Positions 892 through 11,943 of a stretch of 51,700 nucleotides of DNA are shown piece after piece (position 1 is the stretch's first letter; each line of letters begins with the position of its first letter). Origin of the DNA: Rhodothermaceae bacterium. Lineage in GTDB: Bacteria > Bacteroidota > Rhodothermia > Rhodothermales > Bin80. The DNA is taken from assembly GCA_009841335.1 (NCBI GenBank), contig VXLY01000043.1, positions 1 to 51,700 of the forward strand, in the 5' to 3' direction. Both the position numbers and the translations under genes were made by a program. Under the pieces are notes generated by a model. It saw only the letters and a list, made by a program, of their open reading frames with translations. It was not told the origin of the DNA and did not search any database.

Positions 892-2043
892 TCAGAAACC
901 CAGGCTACGTGTTAACAGAATTATTACTAGGGGAACAAGAAAGAATATACAAGCAACATATCCAAATGCCCAAGCGCGGTTCTTCACAACAAGTACCCCT
1001 AATAACTCCGACATACTCACGGGAATTCTTCGAATCATTCGCAAGGGAAGGAAGGTGATTACGCCACAACAATTAAATATGAGATGAGCAAGCGCTACCT
1101 GCAGGGCAGCGGCTCCCAATACACTGCCACCACTTGCCAAAACCAGTGAAGCTAATAGTGCCGTGACCGTCGTGCCAATGTTTGCACCCAGTACAAATGG
1201 GAAGATTTGTGATACGGTTACAATTCCTGCCCCAACCAAGGGCACCGTGATTGATGTTGTAATCGATGAGCTTTGCACCATTATGGTCACGAGCGTACCA
1301 AAGACGAGCGCAATCGGTGCAGGACCAAATAGGTATTTATTGATGAGTCGCTCTGAACGGCCTAGGAACAGCTTGCGCAGGAGTACCACCAGATAGCGCA
1401 AAGAAAAAAACAGGAGTAGAACACCGAGTATCAGGACCAGCACACCGGAGTCTAGCATCAAAGCGACCAGGCCACTCACCACGGGCCCAGTCATCACATC
1501 TACAAAATCAAACAACTCAGTTCCGCCCACACCCGTAACCCCGGTGGCAAGCGCAGCAGACGATTTAGACAGAAAACCAAAGAATAACTCCAGGGGAAAA
1601 AAGATCGCGACTGCCAGTAGATTGAAAAAATCATGCACTGTGGCAGCCCCCATGGCCCTGCCGAATTCGTCCTTTCTCCCGATATGGCCCAACGAAACAA
1701 TGGTATTCGTCACGCTAGTACCTACGTTAGCTCCAAGCACTATCGGAATGGCACCCGCGACAGTAAGCCCTCCGCCGGCTACGGCGGATACCGCCAATGA
1801 GGTTACTGTGGAGGAGCTTTGTACTAGAGAGGTTGCAAGGATACCGATGAAGAGGGCTATGAAGGGATTGCTTGTAGTCTGGATCAGTTGTTCAGCAAAC
1901 CCCTCCCCTAGTAGCTTCATTGATGTGCCCATAAGCTCTAGACTGACGAAAAAGCAAAACAGTATAGCGAGCAACCCAAGTAGCGGGAGCAATGGCGAGA
2001 GACGTTGGATTCTCGACAGGTTATTTCGGTCCGATTCTGTCAT
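892..2043 (-). CDS. Na/Pi cotransporter family protein (NptA/PF02690 type)
   Basis: This 383-residue polytopic inner-membrane protein shows the inverted duplication of Na+-dependent phosphate cotransporters. The first half has LVQSSSTVTS (QSSS at 75-78) and GANVGTSVT (104-112). The second half has MVQSSSITTS (QSSS at 257-260) and GANIGTTVT (286-294). These paired QSSS repeats are the hallmark of the family, which moves inorganic phosphate with sodium. It lacks the C-terminal PhoU-like domain of longer bacterial members. It starts 75 bp downstream of the type IX-secreted beta-helix gene on the same strand and is probably the last gene of the receptor operon. Phosphate as substrate is family knowledge supported by the polyphosphate kinases nearby. 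Confidence 0.9.
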   Translation of the reverse strand: MTESDRNNLSRIQRLSPLLPLLGLLAILFCFFVSLELMGTSMKLLGEGFAEQLIQTTSNPFIALFIGILATSLVQSSSTVTSLAVSAVAGGGLTVAGAIPIVLGANVGTSVTNTIVSLGHIGRKDEFGRAMGAATVHDFFNLLAVAIFFPLELFFGFLSKSSAALATGVTGVGGTELFDFVDVMTGPVVSGLVALMLDSGVLVLILGVLLLFFSLRYLVVLLRKLFLGRSERLINKYLFGPAPIALVFGTLVTIMVQSSSITTSITVPLVGAGIVTVSQIFPFVLGANIGTTVTALLASLVLASGGSVLGAAALQVALAHLIFNCCGVITFLPLRMIRRIPVSMSELLGVLVVKNRAWAFGYVACIFFLVPLVIILLTRSLGF

Positions 2044-2118
2044 GGCAATAGAGTAGAAAAACGCCTGGTTCCTTACGCGGGGAGCCCGGCGTTACTTCAA
2101 TACAACGGTGTAGAAATT

Positions 2119-3876
2119 TTATTTAAGGAGCGTCATTTTGCGGGTTAGGCTTTCAGTCTGCGTATTGAGACGGTATAGGTAGAGGCCGCTTGGCAGGTAG
2201 CTCGCATCGAACTGCACACGGAAAGTGCCTGCAGACTTCTGGTCGTCAACAAGAACTGCTACCTGTCGTCCCGTCACGTCCAATACTGAAAGGGTGACGT
2301 TCTGCGCACGGTCAAGGTCGAATTCGACAGTGGTAACAGGGTTGAAGGGGTTCGGGTAATTCTGAGTGAGTGAAATTTCAGAAGGTATTTCCGCTACAGA
2401 AACCTGTTCAATAGACGTCGGGACAGAGTACCCCAGTTGATCAAGTGCAGTCCATCCAAACAGCCAATTCTCGCGGCCAAAGGCGCCGATATAATCGGTT
2501 TCGGAGAAGAATTGATCGCCGTCAGGGTAGTCTGCCCTAGGGAGCGTAAAAGCGGGGCTATTACCGTGGGGTCTTGGATCAAGCAATCCTGTCCCCGTCG
2601 GGCCGCGATCAATTCCTCGTAACTTTGGATCTTCGATAGCATTTCCGTTGGCCTGTAGGTAGGTAAGTACAGCAGTCACAAAAGCGGGATCACTGCCTGC
2701 AATCCAGTCTTGGGGGGAGGTTCCGGAACCGAAATCCCACCAGATGTTGTGAGTCAGACCAAGGTCTCCGGTCTCAAATCGTTGGCGACTGTCCTCAGTC
2801 TTGGATCCTGTATTGTCAATGTCTTCAATTTGGATGGCATGTCCTCCCTTGTCCGTATTAAACTGTGTGAAGATTGAGTTATGATAGAATCCACCGGAAT
2901 TATCGCGGAACATGAGCATTTCGCCGCGATCTGATTCAGGAGAAGCATCGGATCCGGGTCCAACGTACGTGACGTTATAGATTTTCGGGATAGCAAAGGG
3001 CTGGAAGTGTTCGTCGCCTCCTGCACCATCCTGCTCAGCAGCGGCCCCGGCTTTATCTGTACCCTGAAGTACAAACCAGAACTGTCCTTTACCGCGCCAG
3101 CCCTGATCCCAATCAATCGCATCGTCGGAATTAAAGGCGCTCACGAAGTACTTCAGATTGACGGTGCCTCCGAAGAATTCCACACCATCGTCACCACTGG
3201 CAAAGACCTCAATGTGCTCGAGAACTGTACCAGCACCCACACCTCCCAGTGTCAAGCCCTGGATCTCGTTGCCGTCCGACTCACCAATATTAATGCCGGT
3301 ATGACGGATAGAGACGTAGCGCATAACACCAGAGTCATCATCATCCACGCTACCGCCATATTCTGCACGTGTATCCCCATCGGGCAGGAGTTCATTAACC
3401 CCCTCAACCTCCTTATAGTCACCTGCGGCATCACCTGGGTTGTTCGTTCCCGCTTGTCCCAGGATAACGATACCTCCCCAGAGGCCGCGGTCCGGGTCTT
3501 CATTGGTAAGCAAATCGGGGCTGGAGATGTTATCCTGGAACGCGGTAAAAATAATGGGTTGAGTTAGCGTCCCATCGGCAAAAATCTTGCCTCCCCGAGC
3601 GATCACGAGCGCGGAAGCATCTGGCCCCGTTCCCTCCTCAGCTTTTATAACAGTCCCGGCGTCAATGTGTAACGTCGCACCTTCTTCTACGATAACAAGG
3701 CCGTCCAGGATATAAACATTATCGGCGGTCCATCGAACTGTGTCACCTGCTTCGATGTCATGATCTGTTACCGTGACTTCTGGGCGAGACTCAACATCAT
3801 CAAGTTGGGCTGCAGCTTCTCGCGAAGGGGCAAGAGTAATGAATACAGCAAGTAGAGCAGCAATAATCGTTCGCAT
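2119..3876 (-). CDS. Secreted beta-helix-like protein with type IX sorting domain
   Basis: The 585-residue product begins with a signal peptide (about residues 1-23, ending AAAQ). Residues about 50-480 are Gly/Asp/Asn-rich with recurring short hydrophobic turns (for example VYILDGLVIVEEGATLHI), suggesting a right-handed parallel beta-helix. From residue 506 there is an NYPNPFNP motif followed by an 80-residue beta-rich tail ending in MTLLK. This is the type A C-terminal sorting domain recognised by the type IX secretion system, so the protein should reach the cell surface or medium. It lies 157 bp downstream of the TonB receptor and upstream of the Na/Pi transporter. A partnership with the receptor, such as ligand capture, is inferred; no catalytic motif is recognisable. 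Confidence 0.85.
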   Translation of the reverse strand: MRTIIAALLAVFITLAPSREAAAQLDDVESRPEVTVTDHDIEAGDTVRWTADNVYILDGLVIVEEGATLHIDAGTVIKAEEGTGPDASALVIARGGKIFADGTLTQPIIFTAFQDNISSPDLLTNEDPDRGLWGGIVILGQAGTNNPGDAAGDYKEVEGVNELLPDGDTRAEYGGSVDDDDSGVMRYVSIRHTGINIGESDGNEIQGLTLGGVGAGTVLEHIEVFASGDDGVEFFGGTVNLKYFVSAFNSDDAIDWDQGWRGKGQFWFVLQGTDKAGAAAEQDGAGGDEHFQPFAIPKIYNVTYVGPGSDASPESDRGEMLMFRDNSGGFYHNSIFTQFNTDKGGHAIQIEDIDNTGSKTEDSRQRFETGDLGLTHNIWWDFGSGTSPQDWIAGSDPAFVTAVLTYLQANGNAIEDPKLRGIDRGPTGTGLLDPRPHGNSPAFTLPRADYPDGDQFFSETDYIGAFGRENWLFGWTALDQLGYSVPTSIEQVSVAEIPSEISLTQNYPNPFNPVTTVEFDLDRAQNVTLSVLDVTGRQVAVLVDDQKSAGTFRVQFDASYLPSGLYLYRLNTQTESLTRKMTLLK

Positions 3877-3971
3877 AAGTTGTTCAACCCGTGCTTATGG
3901 GATTGAGAGTTATTCCCTGCAAGGAACAACCGGGGGAGGCTTTTCCCAAACCCGGTAATCAGAAGGCACAT

Positions 3972-3987
3972 GTACTTCGGCAAGTAC
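3972..3987. other. Small perfect hairpin between receptor and beta-helix genes
   Basis: GTACTT and AAGTAC form a perfect 6-bp stem around a CGGC tetraloop. It lies in the 157-bp gap between the receptor stop and the downstream start. No T-run follows on the minus strand, so it is unlikely to be a complete terminator. It could stabilise or process the operon mRNA and unbalance expression of the two genes. Confidence 0.3.
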
Positions 3988-4033
3988 GAGGTCTGAGGGG
4001 GGAAGAGCTTGAAGGTGGTTCACGGTTAGAGGA

Positions 4034-7030
4034 TCAATCAATGATATAGGTGATTCCGAGTCCAATCATCCTGGACCGGGAATACGAACTGTAGTCATAA
4101 ATGCGACCTTTGAAGGTCTGGATCTGACGCACATCTGCGCCTAGCAAATTCTTAGCGGTGAGCTTGAGGCGCAGGTTTGCGGGCAAATCTTGCGAAATAG
4201 TTACATCCAGATCGCTCCTGGATTTTTCGAATACATCCGGGGTTGCGCCTTCCGTGACGGACAAGAGTCGATCACCGAAGACGGTATAGTAGACGCCAAT
4301 CACCGTTCCCAGAGTGTAATTTTCGTAGCTTGCGTTGAGGTTGAGCAGGAACGGAGACTGTCCTTCCAGCGAGCGGGTGGTGCTGGCGTTTGGATCTGAG
4401 GCCCGGATAATGATCATCTCTTCCTCGGGGATATCCACTTCCGAGCGAACGAGCGAGAAGTTACCAGCAAGTGAAAGGTTCTTGATAACCGGTATGGTGG
4501 TCCAGGTATCCAGCCGTTTGCGGGCTTCAAGTTCAAATCCAAAGACGCGGGCATGATCTACGTTCTGGAAGGACACAAAGCGTCCTTCCCCTACGTTGCG
4601 CAGGACCCTTTCAATGGGGTCGTCAAATAGCTTGTAGAACCCACTTACAGCAAGGATTTGACCGGCGCGAGCAAACATTTCCCAGCGCACATCAAAGTTT
4701 GTTATGAGTGTGCGATTAAGAAGTGGGTTTCCCTCCTGAATATCTCCGCCAACAAAATTGAAGCTCTGAAAGGGTGCAAGCTCGCGGAAGGTTGGGCGAG
4801 CCAGTGTTCGCGTGGCTGCGAATCGAAGGTTCATACCCTCGGTAATCGCATAAATAACATTGATGGACGGAAGCCAGTCTGAATTGTCCAATAGGCCCGT
4901 TTTTAGTGAATCTGGCAGGTTTTGATCGAAGCTCTCCGTGAGCATTTCGGTTGTTTCCACTCTGGCACCTCCGACTATTTTCAACTGACGAGTGAGTGGC
5001 AGCTCAATCATCAAATAACCGGCAAGAATATCACGGGAAGCGTCGTAATTGGCACGGCTTGGTGAATTTTCCTGCAGATAGAGCCCGGCGTTATAGGCAA
5101 TGATATCGCCAACATTGAGCGTGTCCAACACGCCAATATTTTCAGTTGAGAAGTATTGCTCTGAATTCCCGTCAAAGTCCCTGTAGTCAACTTCCCGTCC
5201 TTCATGATATTCAAAGCGTCGTTGCCTGAACTCCCGCTCAGAGGTGTCGTAGCGTCCGCCAAATTTGACTCGTGCTCCCAATCCTCCCCATTGTCGAAAG
5301 GGGAGGGTAAAATCCAGAATAGCGCCTTGGCTTTTTTCGCTTAGATAACGGAAGTAACGTTGTGGAGGTGGTGCGTTGCCGCCTCCAAGCGAATAGGTTG
5401 TGTCAATACCGCAAGCACCTTCCCTAATGTTCTGGGTAGAGGAGAAGAATCGAAGATCAGGTTCTTCCTGTGAATTCTGTGCAAGAGATACCTTCCATTC
5501 AATTTGGATGGGCGCAAAGCCATGTTCTCCTCTGAATTGAAAACTTTGTAGGGCCCGCTCCTCGTAGTCCAGTGTTCGTGTAATAAATGTTGCGCCTCCG
5601 GTCTGGTCACGAAAACCACTTAACAATGTAGACTGGCTGACACCACTTTGTGTGCGGAGCACAGTGAATACCAATTCGTGATTATCACTGGGTTGGAAAG
5701 CTATTGAACCGGAACCGCCCCAGGTGGCTTCGTCACTTCCTTGGATGTTTTTGAATGACGCGACCTCTTTCGGGTCTGCCTTTGTGATGATATCTAAATC
5801 TGGACCTGGGCCAAAATATGTTGTGCTGAACAGGTTCTCTATGGATGCAACATCTCCACCAATTAGTCGCCATTGACTAAATACACCATCGTCATAGTAG
5901 CTATAGCTTCTGCCATAGGTGAGACTACCGGTCAGGCCAAGTGGTTGACCAAAGAGCATTAGTCGTCCACCGGCAGCAGCGGAGAAGCTATGATTGACGG
6001 GGGTAGAGGCAAAGGAGGGCGACATAACATTGTTAAATGCCCGCGAAAAGGCATTTAAAATGTCGGCACGAGCTGTGCGAATCAGATTAGTTGTGCCACG
6101 TCGCAAGTCACGTAGGTCCGACTCGCGTGGCAATTGTTCAGTGGGATCCTTACTGTCGAGAACATCTGGTAAGGCACGCAGACCGTTGTCGTATCCAAGC
6201 CAGTCTGTATCACTGCCTGCGTAGGAGAGGAAGTTGTCAATACGGCTTGCCTGATCATCGTACGTCATTGACGCTGATACCTGCAGGGTAAATGATTCAG
6301 GGAAGGCCTTTGTCGAAACATCAACCAAACCACCACTGAAATCCCCTGGTTTGTCGGGTGTGAAGGTTTTCAGCGTTACAATGTTATCAAGGAGTGCCGC
6401 TGGGAAAAGGTCCAGCTGAAATGCTTTGCGGTCTGGATCTGCGCTGGGCAAAGTTGATCCATTCAGCGTTGTGCTCGCATAGCGATCGCCTAAGCCCCGG
6501 ATATACACATAGCGGCCACCAACGACGGAGGCTCCGGTCACCTTGGTCATAGCCGCCGCCGCATCACCTGATCCAGAGCGACTGATTGATTCAGCACTGA
6601 TGGCATCGCTTACAGCTACCGCCCTGGCACGCCCGCGCAGCAGGCCTACCTCAGAGCCCTCTAGGACAGTAGCGGTAACGTGCACTTCGCCATATGAGAG
6701 GGCCTCAGTGAAGAGTTCAATTTCCAACCGGGTGATTTCCCCCGCGGAGACAACAACATCCTCCACCGTAATAGTGGTGAAACCTACATAGGAAAAAACC
6801 AACGTGTATGTTCCAGGCTCGGCTACAAATTCGTACCTTCCGTTTAGGTCAGTTGCATCTCCGGTAGTGGTTCCGGCGATGACGGCAGTCGCTCCGATCA
6901 ATGTTTCACCATTTTCGCCGTCAACAACAATGCCCGCTAGTGTACCGGTTTGGGCTTTGGCCGGATGAGCGAGTAGAAGCAGTAGCATCGGAAGCACCAC
7001 CATTAGACCGACGCCGCGATTCTGAGGCAT
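4034..7030 (-). CDS. TonB-dependent outer-membrane receptor with carboxypeptidase-like N-terminal domain
   Basis: The 998-residue protein has a signal peptide (about 1-26, cut after AKA), then a carboxypeptidase regulatory-like beta-sandwich at about 28-105 (GTLAGIVVDGENGETLIGA). A plug domain follows at about 130-250, including YVYIRGLGDRYASTTLNG. The rest is a long beta-barrel ending in GLGITYIID. This matches the receptor family that imports large or scarce ligands across the outer membrane of Bacteroidota-like bacteria using TonB energy. It heads a minus-strand set with the type IX-secreted protein and Na/Pi transporter. The upstream 11-bp-periodic TGTTAA-like repeats suggest phosphate control. 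The ligand is unknown; a phosphorylated compound is inferred from context only. Confidence 0.92.
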   Translation of the reverse strand: MPQNRGVGLMVVLPMLLLLLAHPAKAQTGTLAGIVVDGENGETLIGATAVIAGTTTGDATDLNGRYEFVAEPGTYTLVFSYVGFTTITVEDVVVSAGEITRLEIELFTEALSYGEVHVTATVLEGSEVGLLRGRARAVAVSDAISAESISRSGSGDAAAAMTKVTGASVVGGRYVYIRGLGDRYASTTLNGSTLPSADPDRKAFQLDLFPAALLDNIVTLKTFTPDKPGDFSGGLVDVSTKAFPESFTLQVSASMTYDDQASRIDNFLSYAGSDTDWLGYDNGLRALPDVLDSKDPTEQLPRESDLRDLRRGTTNLIRTARADILNAFSRAFNNVMSPSFASTPVNHSFSAAAGGRLMLFGQPLGLTGSLTYGRSYSYYDDGVFSQWRLIGGDVASIENLFSTTYFGPGPDLDIITKADPKEVASFKNIQGSDEATWGGSGSIAFQPSDNHELVFTVLRTQSGVSQSTLLSGFRDQTGGATFITRTLDYEERALQSFQFRGEHGFAPIQIEWKVSLAQNSQEEPDLRFFSSTQNIREGACGIDTTYSLGGGNAPPPQRYFRYLSEKSQGAILDFTLPFRQWGGLGARVKFGGRYDTSEREFRQRRFEYHEGREVDYRDFDGNSEQYFSTENIGVLDTLNVGDIIAYNAGLYLQENSPSRANYDASRDILAGYLMIELPLTRQLKIVGGARVETTEMLTESFDQNLPDSLKTGLLDNSDWLPSINVIYAITEGMNLRFAATRTLARPTFRELAPFQSFNFVGGDIQEGNPLLNRTLITNFDVRWEMFARAGQILAVSGFYKLFDDPIERVLRNVGEGRFVSFQNVDHARVFGFELEARKRLDTWTTIPVIKNLSLAGNFSLVRSEVDIPEEEMIIIRASDPNASTTRSLEGQSPFLLNLNASYENYTLGTVIGVYYTVFGDRLLSVTEGATPDVFEKSRSDLDVTISQDLPANLRLKLTAKNLLGADVRQIQTFKGRIYDYSSYSRSRMIGLGITYIID

Positions 7031-7094
7031 GAAGAATTTGAGGCTTATGAGAATAGCTCGTCAGAGTAGTTCAATTCACAGGCGGGCAATAGGA

Positions 7095-7133
7095 TGTTAC
7101 CTAAATGCAAACGTGATGTTAAATTTTTGTAAC
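7095..7133. promoter_or_regulatory. Candidate Pho box: four hexamers at 11-bp period
   Basis: TGTTAC (7095-7100), TGCAAA (7106-7111), TGTTAA (7117-7122) and TGTAAC (7128-7133) are each separated by exactly 5 bp. On the minus strand, in the receptor direction, they read GTTACA, TTAACA, TTTGCA, GTAACA, close to the TTAACA-type half-sites with 5-bp spacers bound by PhoP-type regulators. The array lies 65-103 bp upstream of the receptor start and 65-103 bp upstream of ppk1. The spacing is seen directly; phosphate control is inferred from it and from the genes on both sides. Confidence 0.55.
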
Positions 7134-7135
7134 AC

Positions 7136-7148
7136 ATGATTGAATCAT
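7136..7148. promoter_or_regulatory. 13-bp palindrome in the receptor/ppk1 divergent promoter
   Basis: ATGATT-G-AATCAT is a perfect odd-length palindrome three bases after the hexamer array and 49 bp upstream of the ppk1 start. The size suits a dimeric regulator. It may be a second operator on the ppk1 side, or chance in an AT-rich region. Confidence 0.35.
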
Positions 7149-7197
7149 CAAATCCAATGATTCGTTACGGAAGTAATTCCGCTATAGTTCGAGTCTC

Positions 7198-9384
7198 ATG
7201 ATGCGTGAAACAGCTGAGAAGAAGACCATTTTGGCTTCTTCCAATAATGGTGAATCCCAGGCATTGGACCTGGAAGATTTTTCCCTTTACAACAACCGAG
7301 AGCTGAGCCTGCTGGATTTTCAGTACCGTGTGTTTGAGGAAGCGCAAGACGAGGACAATCCATTACTGGAGCGCCTAAAATTCCTCTCTATTGTCGGCTC
7401 AAATCTGGACGAGTTTTATATGGTGCGTGTGGGCGGTCTCAAGAAACAAGTTGCGAGTGGCGTAACGGATCTTTCGATTGACGGCCGAACGCCAGCCGAA
7501 CAGCTCTTGGCCGTAAGGACGGAGGCGCAGCGATTGATGCAGACCGCACATGAGTATCTTTTTACAACCCTCATTCCCGAATTGGCGGCATCAGGCATCA
7601 GAATTCTGGACTACTCGGAATTAACGGCAAGGCAGAAGGAGGAGGCTACATGGAAGTACGAGCAGACAATATTTCCGGTGCTTACGCCATTGGCGGTTGA
7701 CCCGTCGCATCCTTTTCCGCACATTTCGAATCTGAGCCTCAACCTGGCTGTACTGGTAAGGGATGAGTTGGGGGGTGAGCGTTTCGCGCGGGTCAAAGTG
7801 CCGAGACCGCTATCTCGTCTAATGCCGGTCATCTCCGAGCCTTTGAAGATCAAGGTAAACTCATCTACACGAAGAGTCTATTCCTTTGTATGGGTGGAAC
7901 AAGTGATTGCGGCCAACCTGCAGTCGCTTTTTCCTGGGATGAAAATAGAGGCCGTACACCCATTCCGGATCACGCGCAATGCGGATCTGACTATTCAGGA
8001 ACAGGAAGCAGATGATTTGCTGGAGACAATGGAGCAGGGGGTACGTCAGCGTCGCCTCGGTTCTGTACTGAGGCTTACAGTTAATCCGGACATGCCCGAA
8101 CAGGTGCGATCAATTCTGATCGAAAATATGGCTACCGATGAGAATGATGTTGTGATAGTTAATGGGCCACTTGGGCTCGCGAGTTTGATGGAGCCAATAT
8201 CTGAGATTGATCGATTTGACCTCAAGTATCAACCGTTCGTACCGTTTACTTCATTGAGGCTGAAATCCGAGACACGCGATGGAGATTTTTTTACAGTCGT
8301 GAGAGCACAGAATCATTTGGTCCATCATCCTTATGATTCGTTTTCGCCTGTAATAGAATTTTTGGAAGCCGCTTCGACAGATCCTAGCGTACTCGCGATC
8401 AAAATGACGCTCTATCGCGTGGGAAGTCGATCCCCAATTGTACGGGCGCTCATGAAAGCAAGGGAAAATGGCAAACAGGTCGCCGTGCTTGTTGAGGTGA
8501 AAGCCCGCTTTGATGAAGCAAGCAATATTGGTTGGGCCCGGGCGCTTGAGCGGGAAGGTGTTCACGTGATCTATGGTGTCATCGGGCTCAAGACACACAC
8601 CAAGGTAGCATTGGTGATTCGGAATGAAGGAGGACATATTCGGCGATATGTGCACCTTTCTACCGGTAACTACAACAGTGTCACAGCACATATCTATGAG
8701 GATCTCGGGTTCTTTACGATTGACCCGAAAATTGGCGAGGATGCCTCAGATTTGTTCAACTTCCTGACGGGTTATTCTGAAAAACGTAACTATAGCAAGT
8801 TGGTAGTTGCTCCTATTAATTTGAGAAAACGGTTCACTGAATTGGTTCGTCGCGAAATTGATCACTGCAAGGCAGGTCGCGAGTCACATTTGATTCTAAA
8901 AACCAATGCGCTCGTGGATGGAAAAATCATTCGATTACTCTATGAAGCATCACAGGCCGGCGTCAAAATAGACTTGTTAGTTCGTGGTATATGTTGCCTC
9001 AAACCAGGGATATCCGGCGTTAGTGAGAATATCAACGTGATCAGCGTTGTCGGGCGCTTCTTGGAACACAGCCGTATTTACTACTTCACAAATGGAGGCA
9101 ATGAGGAGATTTACCTTGGGAGTGCTGACCTCATGCCCCGAAATCTCAATCGACGGGTAGAACTATTATTTCCAATTCAGGATGAAGAGTACGTTCGCTA
9201 TCTCCGGGATGTAGTACTTGAATCCTATCTCCGAGACACCGTTAAAGCCAGATACTTGGATGTAGACGGTGTATATAGCCGACGGGATGGATCAGGCGAG
9301 AGGCTTGCGGTCCAGGAAGAGTTGCTTCGTGTTCGTGCTGGCTGGGTGGAGGAAGAGCAACAACATCCATGGGAACTCTTTTGA
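7198..9384 (+). CDS. ppk1: Polyphosphate kinase 1
   Basis: The 728-residue protein is full length for PPK1, which reversibly makes long-chain inorganic polyphosphate from ATP. The N-terminal domain carries YNNRELSLLDFQYRVFEEA (31-49) and GSNLDEFYMVRVGGL (67-81). The catalytic half has the two phospholipase-D-like histidine motifs: His467 in LKTHTK, the expected autophosphorylated residue, and His624 in FLEHSRIYYF. HLSTGNYN (486-493) is also typical. Two adjacent ATGs (7198 and 7201) are equally possible starts. It is divergent from the TonB receptor operon and shares a 167-bp regulatory gap with a Pho-box-like array. Identity is firm; phosphate-responsive expression is inferred. Confidence 0.97.
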   Translation: MMRETAEKKTILASSNNGESQALDLEDFSLYNNRELSLLDFQYRVFEEAQDEDNPLLERLKFLSIVGSNLDEFYMVRVGGLKKQVASGVTDLSIDGRTPAEQLLAVRTEAQRLMQTAHEYLFTTLIPELAASGIRILDYSELTARQKEEATWKYEQTIFPVLTPLAVDPSHPFPHISNLSLNLAVLVRDELGGERFARVKVPRPLSRLMPVISEPLKIKVNSSTRRVYSFVWVEQVIAANLQSLFPGMKIEAVHPFRITRNADLTIQEQEADDLLETMEQGVRQRRLGSVLRLTVNPDMPEQVRSILIENMATDENDVVIVNGPLGLASLMEPISEIDRFDLKYQPFVPFTSLRLKSETRDGDFFTVVRAQNHLVHHPYDSFSPVIEFLEAASTDPSVLAIKMTLYRVGSRSPIVRALMKARENGKQVAVLVEVKARFDEASNIGWARALEREGVHVIYGVIGLKTHTKVALVIRNEGGHIRRYVHLSTGNYNSVTAHIYEDLGFFTIDPKIGEDASDLFNFLTGYSEKRNYSKLVVAPINLRKRFTELVRREIDHCKAGRESHLILKTNALVDGKIIRLLYEASQAGVKIDLLVRGICCLKPGISGVSENINVISVVGRFLEHSRIYYFTNGGNEEIYLGSADLMPRNLNRRVELLFPIQDEEYVRYLRDVVLESYLRDTVKARYLDVDGVYSRRDGSGERLAVQEELLRVRAGWVEEEQQHPWELF

Positions 9385-9450: not shown

Positions 9451-10107
9451 TCAAGGATATAGCAGTTTGGTTTGCCAATCCCCAGAAGGCAGTCGATTAA
9501 ATACTAGACGCTCGTGCAGTCGATTCTTGCGCCCTTGCCAGAACTCAATACTCTCGGGAATCACCCGAAATCCTCCCCAGTGAGGGGGACAGGGGATGTT
9601 TTCTCCAGGGTATTTCTGATTAAATCGTTGCACGTGCATTTTCAATTCTGACCTTTCGTTTAGCAGCGTACTTTGGCGGGAGGCCCAAGCCCCAATACGA
9701 CTACCCCTGGGGCGTGATTGAAAGTACGTTTCACTTTCATCCCTAGTGATCCGCTCAACGTTTCCCTCTATTCTTACCTGGCGCTGGAGCGTTGACCAGT
9801 GAACAACCAGGGCTGCCCGTGGATTAGAATTCAGCTCGTTTCCTTTGCGGCTGTGGTAATTTGTGAAGAACACGAAACCACGATGATCTACGCTCTTGAG
9901 TAGAACAATTCTGCCACTCGGAACCCCATCTGGCGAGGCAGTGGCGAGTGTCATCGCCTCAGGAAGATAAATATTAGCGTCTTGAGCGAGGTCAAACCAT
10001 TCCCGGAATTGCACGATTGGATCTTTGTCGGGGCTTGCGGCCGGCAAGTCCTGGATGATTTCCTGGCTGGTTTCCACAGACATAGGTATATGTGGATCGA
10101 GGCTCAT
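9451..10107 (-). CDS. pdxH: Pyridoxamine/pyridoxine 5'-phosphate oxidase
   Basis: The 218-residue flavoenzyme oxidises pyridoxamine or pyridoxine 5'-phosphate to pyridoxal 5'-phosphate using FMN and oxygen. Family landmarks are PSGRIVLLKSVDHRGFVFFTNY, with the FMN-binding RIVLLK segment, the NPRAALVVHW beta strand, the SRIGAWASRQS segment and the C-terminal EFWQGRKNRLHERLVF signature. The length is standard. A second ATG eight codons in (at 10083) could also be the start. It is convergent with ppk1, 66 bp apart, with no clear terminator between. PLP made here would serve MetY, the PLP decarboxylase and Kbl elsewhere in the window. Confidence 0.96.
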   Translation of the reverse strand: MSLDPHIPMSVETSQEIIQDLPAASPDKDPIVQFREWFDLAQDANIYLPEAMTLATASPDGVPSGRIVLLKSVDHRGFVFFTNYHSRKGNELNSNPRAALVVHWSTLQRQVRIEGNVERITRDESETYFQSRPRGSRIGAWASRQSTLLNERSELKMHVQRFNQKYPGENIPCPPHWGGFRVIPESIEFWQGRKNRLHERLVFNRLPSGDWQTKLLYP

Positions 10108-10125
10108 AAGATAACCGGATTAGGT

Positions 10126-10263
10126 ATGATGTTAGACGAATGGAACCTGATTAACTGCGGTCTGTTGCCGACGAGATACTCACTACGTCGCAAGGTCCGA
10201 GCAGTCACTGAGCCACTCCTATACAAATGGATGAGCTTGATACACAAGATTGCCACAAAATGA
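10126..10263 (+). other. Possible 45-codon small ORF in the pdxH upstream gap
   Basis: A short open frame starts at tandem ATGs, is rich in Leu, Arg and Lys (for example YSLRRKVRAVTEPLLYKW), and ends before the next gene. It has no recognisable family and no strong ribosome-binding site. It may be a small basic peptide, a leader, or chance. Confidence 0.15.
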
Positions 10264-10372
10264 CGAGATTTTCAGCGTCGGATATAAAACACCGGGGCAC
10301 GCACGCAATACCACGGTTTTTTTCCGAAGTAACCCTTAGTATCATACCTCTCAACTGACACAAGAAGCTATC

Positions 10373-10831
10373 ATGCGCAATTTTTGGATGAACCTGCTGG
10401 CCGTAGTTGTCGGCTATCTCGTAATGGCTATTGGAATCGGAGTGATTTTTAGTGTGGCTTATATGGTTATGGGGGCCGAAGGGGCGTATCAGCCGGACTC
10501 CTGGGATGTTTCCTCGGGCTGGGTAATCATGAGCATTATAGTCGGCATCTGTGTTGCTTTGGTAGCCGGTAAGGTCTGTTACTTGATTGCTCGTAATCAT
10601 ACCGCTACCAAGTACCTGATTGCCCTGGTTCTAGTACTGGGGGTGGTTTCTGCGATAATGATGATGATAGGAGGTGGTGGTGGAGACGAAGTTCGTGACT
10701 TCGCACCATCAGTTTTCGAGGCAACTGAGAAAAGCGTTCAACCTGTGTGGTTGAGCTGGCTAAATCCGTTAATTGGCGCAGTGGGGGTTGCGGTCGGGAG
10801 CGGCCTAGTGAAGATTTTTGGGGATCGATAG
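10373..10831 (+). CDS. Small four-helix membrane protein of unknown function
   Basis: I do not recognise this 152-residue protein. Four hydrophobic segments are visible at about 7-30, 48-72, 80-98 and 126-148. A Gly-rich GGGGGDE stretch at about 100-106 precedes a soluble loop before the last helix. It starts MRNFWMNLLAVVVGYLVMA, a typical uncleaved signal anchor, so it should sit in the inner membrane. It is divergent from pdxH and convergent with ppk2, alone on its strand. In the same frame, translation could stay open for 72 codons after its stop; I treat that as uncertain rather than as part of the gene. Confidence 0.7.
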   Translation: MRNFWMNLLAVVVGYLVMAIGIGVIFSVAYMVMGAEGAYQPDSWDVSSGWVIMSIIVGICVALVAGKVCYLIARNHTATKYLIALVLVLGVVSAIMMMIGGGGGDEVRDFAPSVFEATEKSVQPVWLSWLNPLIGAVGVAVGSGLVKIFGDR

Positions 10832-11127
10832 CCCGACAAAGGCCCGCTGGCCGAGCCGAATGCAGGCAGTAAGCCTGTTTTTCCGTCGTACGGACGCGCT
10901 CTTGGCGTTGTCCGAAGGCGTGGTTTGTATCAGGTGAGAATTGTTAGCTTCCAATTTCTCAGCCCGATGTTCGTTGATGCTGACAATGGGGATACGACAG
11001 AATTAGTACTGACCAAAAAATGTTCAGTGGTCGTGTCTAGCCACAAAACTTAACGGCCGAGAATTTGATACAGGATCAAGGGATAATGCGGAGCAGTATC
11101 CATTATTGGTTGGTGCACGGTAAAAGG

Positions 11128-11943
11128 TTATGGATCCGCTGGTTTAGAAAACTGATTTCCCACGATTCGTTGTGTGTCCATAGCAGGGCGAACATAGCCT
11201 TGGTCCGACTGTAGCGGGGGAAGCGTGATTTCCGGTATCTCAATTCTGCTGTAGGGGATTTGATCAAGAAGGTGGGCAATGCAGTTCAGCCTTGCACGGC
11301 GTTTGTCATCAGCCTCAATGACCCACCAAGGAGAATTCGGAAGGTCAGTGTGCAGAAACATTTGGTCTTTTGCTCTCGAATAGTCGGTCCAGCGAGCTCT
11401 TGATTCTATGTCCATGGGGCTGATTTTCCATTTTCTTGTTGGGTCCTCAATCCGGCGTCGGAATCTGCGTTCCTGCTCTTCAGCGCTTACGGAGAACCAG
11501 TACTTGATCAGTGTTATGCCGTTCTGGATCAACATACGTTCGAATATGGGACATTCTCGCAGAAATTCCCAGTACTCCTCTTCGGAACAGAACCCCATCA
11601 CACGTTCCACGCCAGCACGGTTGTACCAACTTCGATCAAAGAGAATCATTTCTCCAGCGGCCGGCAGATGATTTGCATACCTCTGGAAGTACCACTGCGT
11701 TTTTTCGCGCTCTGTGGGTTTGGAGAGCGCTACTATGCGGCAGACCCTTGGGTTAAGCGGTTCCGTAATGCGCTTGATTGTTCCCCCCTTACCAGCCGCA
11801 TCTCGGCCTTCAAACAGTACGACGATGCGTTTCTTGTTTGATTCAATATAGCGCTGAAGCCGCGCGAGTTCTACGTGTAGTTTAGCCAGTTCCGTCCTGT
11901 AGAACTTTTTACCCAGTTGCCCGTTTTTCTGCGGGGTTTCCAT
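11128..11943 (-). CDS. ppk2: Polyphosphate kinase 2 family protein
   Basis: The 271-residue protein has the P-loop kinase fold of PPK2: Walker A GRDAAGKGG at 46-54, the lid-region Arg-rich RFRRRIEDPTRKWKIS, and the Walker B-like FDRSWYNRAGVE at 102-113. PPK2 enzymes use polyphosphate to phosphorylate nucleoside mono- or diphosphates, or run in reverse. The single-domain size and the WYNRAGVERVMGF motif fit a class I enzyme (NDP to NTP), but class assignment from motifs alone is tentative. Together with ppk1, about 2 kb away, it gives the cell both polyphosphate synthesis and use. It is divergent from metY across an AT-rich gap. Confidence 0.93.
   Translation of the reverse strand: METPQKNGQLGKKFYRTELAKLHVELARLQRYIESNKKRIVVLFEGRDAAGKGGTIKRITEPLNPRVCRIVALSKPTEREKTQWYFQRYANHLPAAGEMILFDRSWYNRAGVERVMGFCSEEEYWEFLRECPIFERMLIQNGITLIKYWFSVSAEEQERRFRRRIEDPTRKWKISPMDIESRARWTDYSRAKDQMFLHTDLPNSPWWVIEADDKRRARLNCIAHLLDQIPYSRIEIPEITLPPLQSDQGYVRPAMDTQRIVGNQFSKPADP

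Follow-up and report, generated by a model that had tools for sequence, protein, structure and literature searches.

A 167-bp gap separates a TonB-dependent receptor gene from the divergent ppk1 in the window analysed here, a 51,700-nt stretch of contig VXLY01000043.1 from a Rhodothermaceae bacterium, and the repeats within it raise the question of whether phosphate controls the flanking genes and, if so, which of them. The initial annotation described four TGTTAA-like hexamers at exact 11-bp spacing between the receptor operon and ppk1. Direct reading confirms both the positions and the flanks, with TGTTAC (7095–7100), TGCAAA (7106–7111), TGTTAA (7117–7122) and TGTAAC (7128–7133) separated by spacers of exactly 5 bp. 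The units are of the TGTWAA type on the plus strand and of the TTWACA type on the minus strand, where they read toward the receptor; positions 1–6 of each unit are informative and positions 7–11 weak. PHO boxes consist of 11-nt units repeated in the same direction, with CTGTCAT units in E. coli and GTTCACC units in S. coelicolor (PMC4415409). The array resembles the PHO boxes of PhoB and PhoP in being built of 11-nt direct repeats with 6–7 conserved nucleotides and 4–5 loose positions, and it contains the two or more such repeats, of about seven conserved and four loose positions, by which a PHO box is recognised (PMC4415409). It differs from them in its consensus, TGTWAAC, and in having four units. 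The features of the locus are collected in Table 1.

Table 1. Predicted and annotated features around the array (positions refer to the window)
Feature	Position	Strand	Remarks
Predicted Pho-box array	7095..7133	.	four 11-bp units; basis: sequence, genus conservation, motif at relatives' pstS/nptA promoters
TonB-dependent receptor, TonB-Xanth-Caul-like	4034..7030	-	opens the probable Pho operon; array-to-ATG distance 64 bp
Secreted protein with type IX secretion (T9SS) sorting tail (Por_Secre_tail)	2119..3876	-	second gene; order kept across family
NptA-type Na/Pi cotransporter	892..2043	-	third gene; PF02690
Polyphosphate kinase 1 (ppk1)	7198..9384	+	divergent; possible second array target; TIGR03705 above cut-off; ATG 65 bp from array
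Polyphosphate kinase 2	11128..11943	-	same neighbourhood across family; profile match, gene order
ATTnAA hexamer (here ATTGAA), candidate -10-type element	7070..7075	-	alignment of ten genomes

Conservation of the array in relatives with the same gene order had been put forward as a check, and both are kept throughout the genus. In the alignment the array is present in 10/10 genus genomes, including G002, at a fixed phase and position, and the operon encoding the receptor, the T9SS-tailed protein and NptA is divergent from ppk1 in every one of them. Across the ten aligned genomes, which provide nine distinct sequences, invariant columns number 17 of 40 in the array, compared with 7 of 70 in the flank toward the receptor. 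Weaker arrays of three to four units, mostly in the same orientation, are found at the receptor promoter in four other genera of the family (p 0.005–0.025); none was seen there in the fifth (G014). A pattern search of the 3.49-Mb genome for four TGTNA units at 11-bp steps, allowing no more than one mismatch, returned two sites, the window array and one on another contig (C33:27086).

To follow the motif beyond this locus, we used a seven-column matrix built solely from the genus arrays, that is, from a locus where no pst gene exists. At 30 loci of order-level relatives, the 420 bp preceding the pstS match were scanned with a threshold of 9 bits. Pairs of units at 11 bp gave a mean score of 9.16, and 17 of the 30 loci, from nine families, reached at least 9 bits, leaving 13 below; families were counted besides loci because relatives are non-independent samples. 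Other spacings gave means of 4.7–6.8, with 1–7 matches at spacings 7–9 and 12–22 and 11 matches at spacing 10, and 400 column-permuted matrices all stayed below the observed mean. A crude four-unit score on the same upstream regions had looked negative, and the signal appeared with the two-unit matrix and the spacing control. With a matrix that included C33-type sites, there were no matches in the pstS coding sequence (0/30).

In three genomes (G023, G024 and G045), all without PstS, nptA is immediately preceded by an 11-bp pair; other spacings gave 0–1 matches. No box was found upstream of nptA in four of the seven Pst-less genomes outside the family that carry the gene, and no 11-bp pair was found upstream of it in six genomes with both PstS and NptA (in one of these, 284 bp were scanned). 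The two transporters tend to exclude each other, with both present in 6 genomes, NptA only in 23, PstS only in 26 and neither in 4 (Fisher P 3e-7, uncorrected for relatedness). Promoters of phosphate-acquisition genes thus carry the repeat at the receptor/nptA operon itself, at 17 of 30 pstS loci of relatives and at nptA in three Pst-less genomes.

The initial annotation also called for a PhoB/PhoP homologue, and a PhoB-like regulator with a PhoR-like kinase is indeed encoded in the genome. Only two response regulators with an OmpR-type DNA-binding domain (Trans_reg_C) are present. One of them, at C5 ~10546–11283, combines PF00072 and PF00486 and has PhoB as its best-scoring model in the library; its score of 208.4 bits against the PhoB equivalog TIGR02154 (NCBIfam) lies under the cut-off of 296.2, and we call it PhoB-like only. 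The adjoining kinase gene (C5 ~9480–10529; HisKA and HATPase_c) has PnpS and PhoR as its best models, both under cut-off. The pair therefore has the composition of a PhoB-type system, a receiver joined to an OmpR-type DNA-binding domain with a PhoR-like kinase adjacent. Homologues of the regulator occur in 59/59 genomes (that of G003 is only distant), and in G028, G038 and G047 the best homologue is encoded just upstream of pstS. No box that might serve as an autoregulation site was found upstream of the phoB-like gene. The second OmpR-type regulator is encoded with a kinase (L002; G000 C97:35341-38571) beside conjugation genes for a TraF-like peptidase and a TrbB-like ATPase, which suggests that this two-component system is carried by a conjugative element.

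What was computed here comprises the array and its conservation, the motif shared with relatives' pstS and nptA promoters, the regulator and kinase genes, and an apparent lack of Pst, PhoU and PitA (see below); from these we infer binding, activation, the direction of regulation and the phosphate signal. The proposal that this is a Pho box is strongly supported by three of these lines: the PhoB-like regulator, the array conserved together with its gene order, and the 11-bp motif found in relatives at the promoters of pstS and nptA. We predict with considerable confidence that the array is a four-unit PhoB-type Pho box driving the receptor/nptA operon under phosphate starvation, and very probably the landing site of the phosphate-starvation regulator. 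Under phosphate starvation, the PhoR-type kinase would phosphorylate the PhoB-type regulator encoded next to it, and regulator molecules would bind the 11-bp units head-to-tail. From the unit nearest the TonB receptor, they would then recruit RNA polymerase to the receptor/T9SS-protein/NptA operon, and activation of the operon would lead to more phosphate import. In the closest relatives of the window, ppk1 may be co-activated from the same box.

The last of these steps bears on a further claim of the initial annotation, namely that one Pho box governs both transcripts. This part was supported for the receptor operon, on account of its spacing and promoter-like element, and faltered for ppk1. 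The distance from the array to the receptor ATG is 63–67 bp in 9/10 genus genomes and ~52 bp in G002, and an ATTnAA hexamer lies exactly 19 bp from the array edge on the receptor strand, a spacing fixed in 10/10 genus genomes. Such a hexamer would suit a -10-type element, the closest repeat of the array then taking the -35 position. It seems likely that the array belongs mainly to the TonB-receptor/T9SS-protein/NptA operon, because the receptor distance is fixed and ATTnAA is conserved 19 bp away. If instead all four units activated both the receptor/nptA operon and ppk1, import would be coupled to polyphosphate storage. We consider such bidirectional control finely balanced, leaning slightly against it. 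The near-equal distance of the array from the two start codons and the divergence of the gene pair in all ten genus genomes speak for it, as do the Pho boxes that Streptomyces carries upstream of ppk (PMC7866108). However, the first in-frame start of ppk1 lies 64–96 bp from the array in nine genus genomes and more than 300 bp away in G002, at least 2 kb separate receptor and ppk1 in G010 and G012 (two other genera), the ppk1 side of the gap showed no promoter element with genus-wide conservation, and the matrix including C33-type sites had no matches upstream of ppk1 in order-level relatives (0/12). Control of ppk1 by the array, where the gene lies 65 bp away, is plausible but unproven because the distance drifts in this way. 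No array-quality site was seen near the polyphosphate kinase 2 gene.

An alternative to the predicted Pho box is that the array binds the OmpR-family regulator with a signal other than phosphate, such as envelope or iron stress, its link with phosphate genes being indirect. Part of the case for this lies in what the genome appears to lack. PhoU was not found in this MAG, which is 97.5% complete, nor was any PstB above cut-off; PstS was found neither in the genome nor in any of 16 family genomes, and PitA neither in the genome nor in the genus. The genome thus does not have the PstSCAB plus PhoU set of a canonical Pho system and departs in this from PhoB/PhoP systems, and these usual signalling partners were not found. 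Because Pst, PhoU and PitA were not found, the genome has no recognised phosphate importer other than NptA of the flanking operon, although some unrecognised importer is possible. The sub-cut-off PhoB score of the regulator also favours a different signal, as does the second site in the genome: the gene downstream of the C33 array encodes a TonB-domain lipoprotein and has no evident phosphate role, and its orthologues in the genus genomes G001, G004, G006, G007 and G008 carry the array too. Against this, the same motif at the same spacing is enriched at pstS and present at nptA promoters of relatives, and the closest homologue of the regulator adjoins pstS in three genomes; we regard a non-phosphate signal as improbable.

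Judged from the gap alone, the array is borderline, and the comparative evidence decides. With no preset motif, the top four-copy periodicity in the 167 bp is 11 bp (start 7094, 20/24); first-order Markov sequences equal this with P=0.003 when only 11 bp is considered and with P=0.056 when any spacing from 7 to 19 counts. Allowing three mismatches, the four-unit pattern gave 18 matches genome-wide versus 21 for the reversed control, which is background, and weak matches therefore mean nothing. A genus-wide search with a three-unit pattern gave 32 matches versus 30 for the reversed control, and only the two orthologous sites recur. A functionless chance periodicity in an A+T-rich gap, for which the P of 0.056 and the genus-wide counts might be cited, is already contradicted by the conservation of the array at fixed phase and position in 10/10 genus genomes and by the transfer of its motif to pstS promoters, and can be regarded as highly improbable.

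Among the three-unit matches, L249, L257, L259, L260, L263, L265 and L267 are near genes without an obvious phosphate role. The array of G002 C94 (L120), upstream of another TonB receptor, was left out of the count, given its opposite orientation and a distance of ~170 bp. This array and another three-unit TGTTAA array near the gene for a secreted protein (L262; G002 C145) are possibly chance or further regulon members. At the C33 locus (L241; G000 C33:20000-35000), three TonB C-terminal-domain-like proteins are encoded next to rpiA (1544–7866), the third being the lipoprotein with the C33 array.

The predicted Pho box can be set beside known systems. As with PhoB/PhoP boxes, the genome encodes an OmpR-family regulator and a PhoR-like kinase, and relatives have the motif at pstS promoters; the putative main target, the TonB receptor/NptA operon, is different. 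By gene descriptions, the locus resembles PUSIII of F. johnsoniae, which unites a TonB receptor, T9SS-secreted proteins and a Ppk-like gene and is strongly induced by phosphate depletion (PMC8115612). PUSIII differs in having ECF sigma/FecR regulators and no NptA, and the term 'Pho box' is absent from the text of that paper (PMC8115612). The same study reports pstS to be missing from one Flavobacterium subclade and nearly all its plant-associated strains (PMC8115612). In Caulobacter, the secreted protein ElpS is made under phosphate starvation and encoded beside a TonB receptor (Cc0171), a likeness again by gene descriptions; it is a lipoprotein whose release is aided by the T2SS (PMC2996285), whereas the protein here has a T9SS tail. 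The Streptomyces pit-pst-ppk supercluster likewise places a phosphate transporter adjacent to a polyphosphate kinase with 11-nt repeat Pho boxes, but there Pst is the transporter, and pstS and ppk each have upstream boxes of their own (PMC7866108), while here a single array lies between divergent genes.

No Rhodothermales Pho box is described in the titles or abstracts of the open-licence literature searched, and TGTWAAC units at 11 bp provide a testable consensus for the order. The locus also suggests a phosphate regulon that has outlasted the loss of Pst and PhoU, and is therefore relevant to phosphate sensing by PhoR in their absence. In its fullest form, this would be a PhoBR regulon lacking PitA and Pst genus-wide (Pst family-wide), with PhoU not found here, rewired to the receptor/T9SS/NptA operon, and with a box that also drives polyphosphate synthesis; we offer this only tentatively, as somewhat short of probable. 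In such a regulon there is no Pst-PhoU relay, and PhoR would therefore have to sense phosphate without it. Some relatives appear to be marine-sponge symbionts, judging from bin names, and polyphosphate storage by symbionts has been discussed for sponges (PMC7022310); a link between import and ppk1 would therefore merit testing.

Two further observations concern the flanking genes. The ppk1 leader (7142–7188) contains two small inverted repeats, GAATCAT..ATGATTC and CGGAA-GTAA-TTCCG, which are lost in more distant genus members. The T9SS-tailed protein has no sequence match in the PDB, and its fold model is of low confidence (pLDDT 44). A distant homologue of it (31% identity) is encoded in Pseudoalteromonas shioyasakiensis (L271; CP076682.1), where its gene adjoins a TonB-dependent receptor and ExbB/ExbD/TonB genes.
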